Below are positions 14,232 through 17,137 of a DNA stretch of 64,000 bases, in pieces. Within the stretch, counting starts at the first letter, position 1. Each line of letters starts with the position of its first letter. This DNA comes from Methylophilus medardicus (lineage in GTDB: Bacteria; Pseudomonadota; Gammaproteobacteria; Burkholderiales; Methylophilaceae): assembly GCF_006363955.1 (NCBI RefSeq), contig NZ_CP040948.1, forward strand, positions 310,001-374,000, written 5' to 3'. Under the pieces are notes generated by a model, which made no database searches, was not told where the DNA came from, and saw nothing but the letters and a program-made list of their open reading frames with translations. The translations under genes were made by a program, and so were the position numbers.

Positions 14232-15290
14232 ATGAGTGTATATTGGAGTGAACTTGTTCATCGCCTGACCCCTTATGTGCCGGGAGAACAACCCAAGCTA
14301 CAAAATCTGGTCAAGCTCAATACCAATGAAAATCCTTTTGGGCCTAGCCCAAAGGTGCTCGCGGCTTTACAAGCGGAAGCATCAGAGAGTTTACGGTTGT
14401 ATCCAGACCCGGATTCTAGTCGTTTAAAGTCAGCCATTGCTGAATATTATGGTTTGCAAGCCAATCAAGTCTTTGTCGGCAATGGGTCCGATGAGGTGCT
14501 GGCACATGTGTTTCAAGCGTTATTGAAGCATGATCAACCGCTATTGTTTCCCGATATTAGCTACAGCTTTTATCCGGTGTATTGCGGTTTGTATGGCATC
14601 GAGTTTGAAACCGTGCCTTTGAATGCGCAGTTTGAAATTGCGATTGATGATTACTTGCGCCCGAATGGTGGAATCATCTTCCCAAACCCTAATGCGCCGA
14701 CAGGGGTGCCCATGCCCTTGAGTGACGTTGAGCGCTTACTGAAAGCGAACACCCATTCGGTGGTGGTGGTGGATGAAGCGTATGTGGATTTTGGTACTCA
14801 GTCCGCCGTGTCGTTGGTCAACCAGTATCCGAATTTACTGGTGACACACACGTACTCAAAATCGCGGTCTTTGGCGGGCTTGCGGGTTGGCTACGCGCTG
14901 GGCAATGCGACATTGATTCAAGCGCTGATTCGTATCAAAGATAGTTTTAACTCTTATCCTCTGGACCGTTTCGCTGAAGCCGGGGCAATTGCAGCCATAC
15001 AGGATGAGGCCTATTTTGAGCAAACGCGTCAGCAAGTGATCGTTGCGCGAGAAGCGTTAGTCGCTGACTTGCAGTCGCTAGGCTTTGAAGTGTTGCCCTC
15101 AGGGGCCAATTTCATTTTTGCCAAACATCCAAAACATGCCGGCGAGCAGTTGGCCGCAGGCTTGCGTGATCAAGCTGTCATCGTCCGCCATTTCAAAAAA
15201 CCGGCACGTATTTTGGACTTTTTACGTATCACGATAGGCAACCCAAGCCAAAATCAGGCACTCATGCAGGCATTGCGTACGCTTCTGTAG
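14232..15290 (+). CDS. hisC: Histidinol-phosphate aminotransferase
   Basis: PLP-dependent fold-type I aminotransferase acting on imidazole-acetol phosphate. The 352 aa contain [12 protein letters not shown], the NGSDEVLA cofactor loop, [21 protein letters not shown] and the PLP lysine region [17 protein letters not shown]. It is the last gene before hps. No strong terminator follows, so read-through into hps is possible. Confidence 0.96.
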
Positions 15291-15384
15291 TCTTGATGTC
15301 GCTAAAATCAAAGTATTTGCAGTAATTTGACTGCTAATATGCCGTAAATGATTGCAACGTGGCTTAAAAAAAGTCGTCGCAATA

Positions 15385-15414
15385 TTGTCATTTTATTGAA
15401 AATGCGGTTATGAT
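15385..15414 (+). promoter_or_regulatory. Sigma70-like promoter of hps
   Basis: TTGTCA (15385-15390), an 18-base spacer and TATGAT (15409-15414), one mismatch from consensus in each box. Transcription would begin about 15421, giving a leader of about 90 bases before a strong GGAGGA ribosome site (15502-15507). It lets hps be transcribed apart from the his genes. Confidence 0.7.
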
Positions 15415-15513
15415 GCACGCTATTGTACATAATGTGCAGTGAGGGTTGCGTTTGCATGATTGCTGCGCATAGATTCATTGGATTTAAAATAGAGCAAACT
15501 CGGAGGAAGAAAA

Positions 15514-16389
15514 ATGGCACAAACCCAGATGGCATTGGACTCATTGGATTTCGACGCAACAATCGCTTTGGCAGCAAAAGTTGCGCCACACGTTGATATT
15601 CTTGAAATTGGTACACCTTGTATCAAACACAACGGTATCGAACTGTTAAAAGCACTGCGTTCAAAATTCCCAAACAACAAAATTTTGGTTGACCTGAAAA
15701 CCATGGATGCCGGTTTCTACGAAGCTGAGCCATTCTACAAAGCAGGCGCTGACATTTGTACCGTTTTGGGTACAGCAGATATCGGTACGATCAAAGGCGT
15801 GATTGACGCTGCCAACAAATACGGCAAAGAAGCGCAAATCGACTTGATCAACGTAAAAGATAAAAAAGCCCGTACGCTTGAAGTCGTTAAATTGGGTGCA
15901 CACATCATCGGTGTGCATACTGGTTTGGATCAACAAGCGGCTGGTCAAACACCATTCGCTGACTTGGGTTTGGTATCCGGTCTGAAAACAGGCGCTAAAG
16001 TGTCTGTTGCCGGTGGCGTAAAAGCAGCAACTACTAAACAAGTCGTTGATGCGGGTGCTGACATTGTGGTTGCTGGTGCAGCTATCTACGGCGCTGCTGA
16101 TCCAGCGGCTGCTGCTACTGAGATCACTAAAATCGCTCACGGTGCTGGTACTGCCGCTAAAGGTGGCAACAAGTTGCTGCCTTGGATCATTGCTGCTGTT
16201 GCTGCAGTGTTGGTTTTCTCTTTGTTGGGTAAAAAATCAGAAGAAGCTGCCCCAGCTGCTGAAGCCCCAGCTGCAGAAGAAACTGCACCTGTTGAAGCTG
16301 CCCCAGCTGCTGAAGCCCCAGCCGCTGAAGCAATGCCTGCTGAAGCTGCACCTGCTGAAATGGCACCTGCAACTGAAGAAGCAAAATAA
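15514..16389 (+). CDS. hps: 3-Hexulose-6-phosphate synthase with C-terminal membrane anchor and Ala/Pro/Glu tail
   Basis: Key RuMP-cycle enzyme: aldol addition of formaldehyde to ribulose 5-phosphate giving hexulose 6-phosphate. Residues 1 to about 210 form a complete HPS domain of the OMP-decarboxylase superfamily, with EIGTP (31-35), the D-x-K-x-x-D catalytic motif in VDLKTMDAG (D60, K62, D65), HTGLDQQ (135-141) and phosphate-binding AGGVK (166-170). Soluble HPS proteins end about there. This 291-aa protein continues with a Gly/Lys linker, a hydrophobic helix LLPWIIAAVAAVLVFSLLG (221-239), KK, and a 50-residue acidic Ala/Pro/Glu tail. GGAGGA gives a strong ribosome site, and codons resemble those of the ribosomal genes more than the his neighbours, suggesting high expression. 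Hexulose-phosphate isomerase is not nearby. The enzyme assignment is firm; membrane tethering is inferred. Confidence 0.93.
   Translation: MAQTQMALDSLDFDATIALAAKVAPHVDILEIGTPCIKHNGIELLKALRSKFPNNKILVDLKTMDAGFYEAEPFYKAGADICTVLGTADIGTIKGVIDAANKYGKEAQIDLINVKDKKARTLEVVKLGAHIIGVHTGLDQQAAGQTPFADLGLVSGLKTGAKVSVAGGVKAATTKQVVDAGADIVVAGAAIYGAADPAAAATEITKIAHGAGTAAKGGNKLLPWIIAAVAAVLVFSLLGKKSEEAAPAAEAPAAEETAPVEAAPAAEAPAAEAMPAEAAPAEMAPATEEAK
16243..16322 (+). repeat. Direct repeat encoding the HPS tail
   Basis: Two exact 29-base copies (16243-16271 and 16294-16322), 51 bases (17 codons) apart, encode the repeated EAAPAAEAPA segment of the tail. This suggests that the tail grew by tandem duplication and may vary in length between strains. 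Confidence 0.85.
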
Positions 16390-16424
16390 TCAATTAAGAT
16401 TCTCACGAATCATTTTTTGATGTT

Positions 16425-16451
16425 AAAAAGCAGCCCCCGGGCTGCTTTTTT
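16425..16451 (+). terminator. Strong intrinsic terminator after hps
   Basis: GC-rich stem GCAGCC/GGCTGC flanked by complementary A and T runs (16425-16436 with 16439-16450), then a T tract. It separates the hps transcript from hisB. Confidence 0.92.
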
Positions 16452-16469
16452 GTTTTTCATGTCGGCTTT

Positions 16470-16499
16470 TTGCCAGTCAAGCAAGACTTGCTGTAAAAT
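16470..16499 (+). promoter_or_regulatory. Candidate promoter for the hisB-to-tatC block
   Basis: TTGCCA (16470-16475), 18-base spacer, TAAAAT (16494-16499), just after the hps terminator and about 50 bases upstream of hisB. A promoter is expected here because the hps terminator would cut off transcription from upstream. Confidence 0.55.
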
Positions 16500-16546
16500 G
16501 AATACATTATTTGCTAATTCATTGTGGTCAATCTCCCCACCTTTAT

Positions 16547-17137
16547 ATGTCACGTCAAGCTGAAGTCACACGCAATACGCTAGAAACTCAAATCACGGTC
16601 TCGATTAATCTCGATGGCACGGGTCAATCTGACCTCAACACTGGTTTGGGCTTTTTCGATCACATGCTCGATCAAATTGCGCGTCACGGCATGATCGACA
16701 TGAAGATACACGCCAATGGTGATTTGCATATTGATGCGCACCATACGGTTGAAGACGTAGGAATCACGCTAGGACAAGCATTTGCCAAGGCGATAGGCGA
16801 TAAAAAAGGACTCACTCGCTACGGCCACAGTTATGTGCCGTTGGATGAGGCTTTAAGCCGAGTTGCGCTTGATCTTTCTGGTCGACCAGGCCTTGAATTC
16901 GATTGTGTATTTACCCGTGCCATGATTGGTGCCTTTGATGTCGACCTCATTCATGAGTTCTTCCAAGGCTTTGTCAATCATGCTCTGGTGACACTGCACA
17001 TTGATAACCTTAAGGGCCAAAACGCACACCACCAAGCTGAGACTATTTTTAAAGCTTTTGGTCGCGCGTTACGCATGGCTTCGACTTTAGATCCACGTAT
17101 GGCTGGATTGATGCCTTCAACCAAGGGTGCGTTATAA
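16547..17137 (+). CDS. hisB: Imidazoleglycerol-phosphate dehydratase (monofunctional HisB)
   Basis: Mn-dependent dehydratase, sixth step of histidine synthesis. The 196 aa carry the metal-binding motifs [33 protein letters not shown] and [17 protein letters not shown]. There is no fused histidinol-phosphatase domain, so that activity must be encoded elsewhere. ATG 16547 gives the usual N terminus ([11 protein letters not shown]); the frame is open to 16511. It begins the second half of the his cluster. Confidence 0.96.

Follow-up and report, generated by a model that had tools for sequence, protein, structure and literature searches.

The current analysis describes a form of 3-hexulose-6-phosphate synthase (HPS) which, judging from its sequence, is very probably associated with the membrane through a C-terminal ending, and whose occurrence in the Methylophilaceae follows the location of its gene. 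The example studied here is encoded within the window, a stretch of 64,000 nucleotides from Methylophilus medardicus. Sequence comparison, which followed up a preliminary description of this DNA, indicates that it is not an odd HPS: it belongs, as the tailed copy, to a two-copy HPS system that is widespread in the family. A C-terminal extension was present in 107 of 107 copies located away from hxlB, versus 0 of 38 hxlB-linked copies. The window HPS is a variant of a known enzyme and not a new kind of system, and we lean modestly toward explaining it as an inner-membrane HPS catching formaldehyde from periplasmic methanol dehydrogenases.

Results

Anatomy of the window protein

Positions 15514-16389 of the window (+ strand) form one intact open reading frame with an ATG start, which encodes a protein of 291 amino acids and about 29 kDa. 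The product matches the HPS profile TIGR03128 over residues 5-207 at 247.2 bits (curated cut-off, 200 bits), its best-scoring solved relative is 3ajx, and the translated frame keeps D60, K62 and D65, which we take to be the catalytic Asp-x-Lys-x-x-Asp motif of HPS. Domain score and catalytic residues thus both identify it as a 3-hexulose-6-phosphate synthase. The preliminary description had already read a full HPS domain followed by a Gly/Lys linker, a 19-residue helix and two lysines with a 50-residue Ala/Pro/Glu-rich tail, and each of these elements was recovered:

15502..15507, + strand: ribosome-binding site GGAGGA of the window hps (our own reading of the sequence)
15514..16134, + strand: HPS catalytic domain, residues 1-207 (profile match and D60, K62, D65)
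16135..16173, + strand: Gly/Lys linker, residues 208-220 (translation)
16174..16230, + strand: predicted transmembrane helix, residues 221-239 (hydropathy and AF2, which places the helix at 222-241)
16231..16386, + strand: KK and acidic Ala/Pro/Glu-rich tail, residues 240-291 (composition and AF2)

The full domain and the D/K/D residues are features shared with HxlA/RmpA (TIGR03128; 3ajx), whereas the window protein adds 84 residues beyond the end of the profile match at residue 207, including the predicted transmembrane (TM) helix. The hydrophobic segment at residues 221-239, LLPWIIAAVAAVLVFSLLG, reaches a Kyte-Doolittle 19-residue maximum of 2.47, a value that none of 10,000 tail shuffles attained, and it is therefore not a product of chance. 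AF2 draws it as a separate helix, preceded by a linker that is mostly of low confidence and non-helical (pLDDT <50 at 212-218). Hydropathy and AF2 thus agree on one hydrophobic helix, some 19 residues long and close to the C terminus, which predicts a single-pass membrane protein with a C-terminal anchor. Residues 240-291 (KK and 50 more; 23 Ala, 12 Glu and 8 Pro) have pLDDT values below 50 at 240-268 and 270-291, and this tail is predicted to be disordered and is presumably periplasmic. The preliminary term "tail-anchored-like" is too loose for this arrangement. Classical tail-anchored proteins usually have fewer than about 30 residues after the helix, whereas 53 follow the helix core in the window protein and 32-111 do so among the 50 TM-type copies of the survey described below.

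Around the helix, 15 genomes of the genus, the window's included, encode exactly the stretch GGNKLLPWIIAAVAAVLVFSLLGKK, 23 of whose 25 codons vary, in every case synonymously. An invariant peptide combined with exclusively synonymous codon change points to purifying selection on the frame, which bears out the earlier reading of an uninterrupted frame; a frameshift or read-through artefact is thereby ruled out. Across the 50 TM-type tails, the best 19-residue hydropathy window averages 2.17 (1.67-2.66). The corresponding maxima within the HPS domains of 141 copies average 1.58 and reach 1.95, above the lowest tail value, which means that not every tail can be told apart by hydropathy alone.

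The orientation of the helix had been left open in the preliminary description, and counts of flanking Lys and Arg alone are indeed undecided (6 of the 50 copies for N-in/C-out, 33 equal and 11 against). The positive-inside test in this form was dropped as uninformative. Net flanking charge, on the other hand, is more positive on the N side of the helix in 48 of the 50 copies and equal in the other 2. Furthermore, our own reading of the window HPS revealed no signal peptide, which together with the cytoplasmic location of the substrate leads us to prefer a barrel-in, tail-out orientation. N-in/C-out is accordingly the topology that sequence features favour for TM-type HPS.

Distribution of tailed and bare copies

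HPS matches were found in 142 of the 150 Methylophilaceae genomes searched. Loci were read from part of these matches, yielding 145 HPS rows from 112 genomes, and removal of two broken rows (L207, L223) left 143 copies from 111 genomes. Ninety-nine copies are adjacent to hisB or hisC, 50 of them with a TM helix and acidic tail and 49 with a short ending. Six copies linked to neither his genes nor hxlB all bear the short ending, two of these being contig-end fragments (L211, L222). With two further his-linked, short-ending copies (G025, G026), the tailed total comprises 50 copies of the TM type and 57 of the short type, while the 38 bare copies are a sample fetched for only some genomes. Within this sample, the split between tailed and bare loci is strict. 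TM-type proteins are 269-351 residues long, full-length short-type proteins 224-230 and bare proteins 209-214, and every full-length copy checked retains the catalytic D/K/D residues, tailed (103 of 103) and bare (38 of 38) alike. Named contigs, whose loci overlap the genomes of the main survey and are not independent of it, contain 59 TM and 10 short endings at his loci and 12 bare copies at hxlB loci; scanning them also retrieved 11 loci with 96-98% identity to the window gene, all from Methylophilus. In all 21 genomes of the genus for which a his-locus HPS was read, the ending is of the TM type.

Five of the 111 genomes lack a tailed copy, so RuMP growth does not depend on the tether everywhere. 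Four of them (G013, G032, G015 and G034, from genera g14 and g16; loci L203, L206, L209 and L210) are about 1.3-1.4 Mb in size and carry a single, bare, hxlB-linked HPS, and the fifth (G125), a draft genome that is 91% complete, likewise has a single bare copy. Tailed copies without his neighbours in the stretch read occur in G011 (genus g12), G018 (g19) and G024 (g24), an indication that the tail tracks second-copy status and not histidine synthesis.

Two other arrangements were encountered. In one genome (L067, G058:C185), tal, a tailed HPS and hisB follow one another on a single contig; this copy was counted as his-linked, and the arrangement may reflect either a rearrangement across HPS loci or a draft assembly join. 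Genera g6, g12 and g19 contain two bare hxlB-adjacent HPS genes (L197, L198, L200, L201, L202, L208), one of which shares only 61-64% identity with the window copy.

A short, putatively amphipathic ending in relatives

The short ending follows the pattern GG(L/V)FGW(L/I/V)KKLFS at the C terminus, with the peptide GGLFGWLKKLFS. A degenerate DNA pattern for it matched 48 of the 150 family genomes, once in each, and its reversed control matched none. On a helical wheel, by our own reading, L1, F2, W4, L5, L8 and F9 occupy one face and G3, K6, K7 and S10 the other. Taken singly, the sequences have hydrophobic moments that stand out only moderately (permutation fraction 0.03-0.15), and the helix that AF2 places at residues 217-224 has pLDDT below 50. 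The ending nevertheless persists, its substitutions mostly conservative, between Methylobacillus and copies in g6, g12 and g19 whose enzyme domains share only 63-66% identity with that of the window copy. Its weight as evidence derives from this conservation across distant copies and not from the moment of any single sequence.

FtsA and MinD bear C-terminal amphipathic membrane-targeting helices. Like these, the short endings are brief, Gly-linked, contain aromatic residues and Lys, and lie at the extreme C terminus; they differ in being attached to a formaldehyde-fixing enzyme, and any lipid binding by them is putative.

Relationship between the two endings

Both types of ending are found within genus g7 (7 TM, 16 short), and G021 carries them side by side in tandem his-linked HPS genes (L038, G021:C4:1755200-1763085; L173). 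The first 207 codons of this pair are identical in 621 of 621 bases, and the identity spans 640 bases, beginning 17 bases before the aligned frame, after which the ends diverge. In 4 of the 24 genomes with both copies read, each of the two paralogs is more similar to the other than to its best ortholog from another genus. As a general process, gene conversion between the loci was set aside, since so few lineages show it. Even so, these 4 genomes and G021 indicate that the enzyme domains can homogenise while the ending still follows the locus. That the ending follows the locus, and that one genus contains both types, is our main argument that membrane affinity is the selected property. Moreover, two dissimilar membrane-seeking endings on one paralog make a stronger case for membrane attachment than a single helix would.

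The preliminary description had proposed that homologues with C-terminal extensions be searched for and mapped on a family tree. The search produced the division by locus given above. In a protein tree of 126 rows, the TM label requires 3 changes and the short-ending label 17, counts that come from a tree with 40 of 123 inner branches open, an unsettled bootstrap and one short-ending fragment (L222) labelled bare; we therefore claim no number of tail switches.

The second HPS and related genes of the same genome

The 2.60-Mb genome from which the window derives encodes a further HPS that is 80% identical to the window copy over residues 1-213. It is bare, comprises 210 residues from MALTQ and lies between tal (transaldolase) and hxlB (isomerase). 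The preliminary description would have abandoned its membrane proposal if a second, soluble hps did all the work and the window gene were silent. Such a soluble-looking copy does exist, but silence of the tailed gene is unlikely, given the purifying selection evident in the helix codons. The hxlB product (HPI) of this genome showed no tail, which implies that the HPS product must leave the membrane.

PQQ methanol dehydrogenases are periplasmic enzymes. Two members of the PQQ methanol/ethanol dehydrogenase family were detected in the genome at 607 and 608 bits (cut-off, 480), and the N termini of both appear signal-like by our own reading.

Two other matches to the tail were found in the genome, one in the N-terminal region of what we take to be an ammonium-transporter-like ORF and the other in a small, presumably lipoprotein-like ORF. 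Both are Ala/Pro/Glu-rich and were judged to be low-complexity resemblances and not sources of the tail. The small lipoprotein-like ORF at L004 1480-1806 (- strand) ends in a tail much like that of the HPS in its Ala/Pro/Glu low complexity.

Genetic context of the window gene

The window hps lies between two histidine biosynthesis genes, with candidate expression signals on either side:

14232..15290, + strand: hisC, upstream neighbour (name presumed from its translation)
15385..15414, + strand: sigma-70-like promoter candidate TTGTCA-18-TATGAT (10/12 matches, consensus only)
16425..16450, + strand: intrinsic terminator-like stem-loop with T run, between hps and hisB (11 pairs)
16511..17137, + strand: hisB, downstream neighbour, likely ATG at 16547 (name presumed from its translation)

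A hisC match adjoins HPS in 97 of the 99 his-type rows of the survey, and the same holds for hisB (97 of 99). In the window (15291-16510), a promoter-like site precedes hps, within the 223-bp hisC-hps gap, and a terminator-like hairpin precedes hisB. The scanned region contained 4 promoter-like sites versus 2.0 in shuffles, and 4 terminator-like sites versus 1.8. Based upon these flanking signals, the his cluster may be split into two transcription units around hps.

HPS outside the family

Of 369 genomes sampled across the class, 6 passed the HPS cut-off: the window's own and five others, which represent three other families. No such tail was seen in the nine HPS ORFs read from these five genomes (two of them fused HPS-HPI), a set apart from two further matches in G398 and the broken pieces in G285. 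HPS-HPI fusions (NF041755) also consist of HPS with a C-terminal addition, but the window protein has no isomerase domain and scores 296 against a cut-off of 500. In Methylococcus capsulatus, particulate, membrane-associated HPS activity was reportedly described in the 1970s. The HPS of families f138 and f170 (L274, L278, L279), which we take to be methanotrophs, have no such tail, and any membrane attachment there would be by other means.

Discussion

HPS is regarded as a soluble enzyme in methylotroph biochemistry. The membrane tether advanced in the preliminary description gains support from the second type of ending in relatives and from the bare state of all 38 hxlB-linked paralogs, and we infer membrane attachment, its topology and a capture role.

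Several steps can be envisioned. Firstly, formaldehyde is made in the periplasm by PQQ methanol dehydrogenases, while the catalytic barrel of the tailed HPS would remain cytoplasmic, on the side of its co-substrate ribulose 5-phosphate. Secondly, the C-terminal element would pin the enzyme to the cytoplasmic face of the inner membrane. Methylophilus and some relatives would use a single TM helix as anchor, leaving an acidic, disordered tail on the periplasmic side, and other lineages an amphipathic helix in the inner leaflet. An HPS so placed would be the first to meet entering formaldehyde, converting it to hexulose 6-phosphate before the rest of the cell is exposed, and the bare HPS beside hxlB would serve bulk RuMP flux. 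That such capture is the purpose of the membrane HPS seems to us slightly more probable than not; against it count the small genomes that manage with a single bare copy and the tailless HPI of the window's genome. The fuller scheme is a two-compartment fixation in which soluble HPS and HPI handle bulk carbon and an inner-membrane HPS layer is anchored in two ways, interchanged while the enzyme domain stays constant; we consider this about evenly balanced between right and wrong. If one of the two HPS copies is indeed held at the membrane, this would partly answer how RuMP methylotrophs with periplasmic methanol dehydrogenases escape formaldehyde poisoning, a question directly testable by tail deletion or swap.

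Among the alternatives, the one that fares best is that the tail attaches HPS to the membrane for complex formation with a membrane partner, such as a respiratory or transport protein, or for regulation, and not for formaldehyde capture. Long and of variable sequence, the acidic tail carries a net charge that averages -9.7 in the 50 copies, and an end common to a few tails, VGAAK(D/E)ATG, could be a docking site. This end was observed in six TM-type tails from different drafts (L131, L135, L144, L150, L166, L169), and L033-L035 are copies of three of them. However, no conserved partner gene was seen. The tailed copies have his neighbours in 101 of 107 cases, the neighbours in G011, G018 and G024 (gene names presumed) look mutually unrelated, and the short ending has no periplasmic part. 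We therefore regard a partner or regulatory role as unlikely, though worth bearing in mind beside formaldehyde capture.

Peptides that load cargo into encapsulins or microcompartments are typically short, Gly-linked amphipathic C-terminal helices, and the short ending does resemble them. The ending could then be a protein-binding or cargo-loading peptide, of which the TM-like segment is a hydrophobic variant. This reading is improbable, since a cargo peptide would not usually consist of a continuous hydrophobic helix with 32-111 residues after it, and neither encapsulin (PF04454) nor microcompartment shell (PF00936) genes were found in any of 35 genomes searched with positive controls included (13 of the genus, 8 of the same order and 14 from other genera of the family, all 14 with the short ending). 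Cargo loading is thus disfavoured, and it is possible that the ending binds some other soluble partner. Similarly improbable is removal of the tail by a protease after synthesis to leave a soluble mature enzyme. Clipping is conceivable for any exposed linker, but it would be strange for a cell to synthesise the short ending only to remove it, and the TM core is invariant in 15 genomes of the genus. A redundant duplicate with a neutral, decaying extension might be imagined from the complete bare HPS in the same genome and the varying length and sequence of the distal tail, yet it is highly improbable in view of the purifying selection on helix codons, the intact catalytic residues of all 103 tailed copies checked and the lack of any bare copy among the 107 away from hxlB.

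The existence of two HPS genes in Methylophilaceae has been described, with one in the histidine cluster and one with HPI and transaldolase, and an identity of about 90% between the copies was given in the passages available (PMC4109929). The gene pair and kinds of location in these passages are the same as those seen here, and a term search of the main text returned 0 occurrences of both "transmembrane" and "C-terminal" and no mention of tails. In the literature searched, largely open-access passages, we found no description of a tail or TM helix on HPS. The two loci are already published; the tails are apparently new.

The putative membrane form of HPS also bears on engineering, at least as far as the excerpts consulted describe it, because methylotrophic E. 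coli strains have been given the hps of Methylobacillus flagellatus (PMC5904121, PMC7588473, PMC9448777) and a tailed copy exists in that species. Excerpts of another report list Mfla_0250 as the reference Hps and Mfla_1653 as Phi (PMC12628762), and locus numbering suggests that Mfla_0250 is the tailed copy. In our own survey, the hisC-linked HPS of M. flagellatus L1B (L181) bears the short, putatively amphipathic ending.
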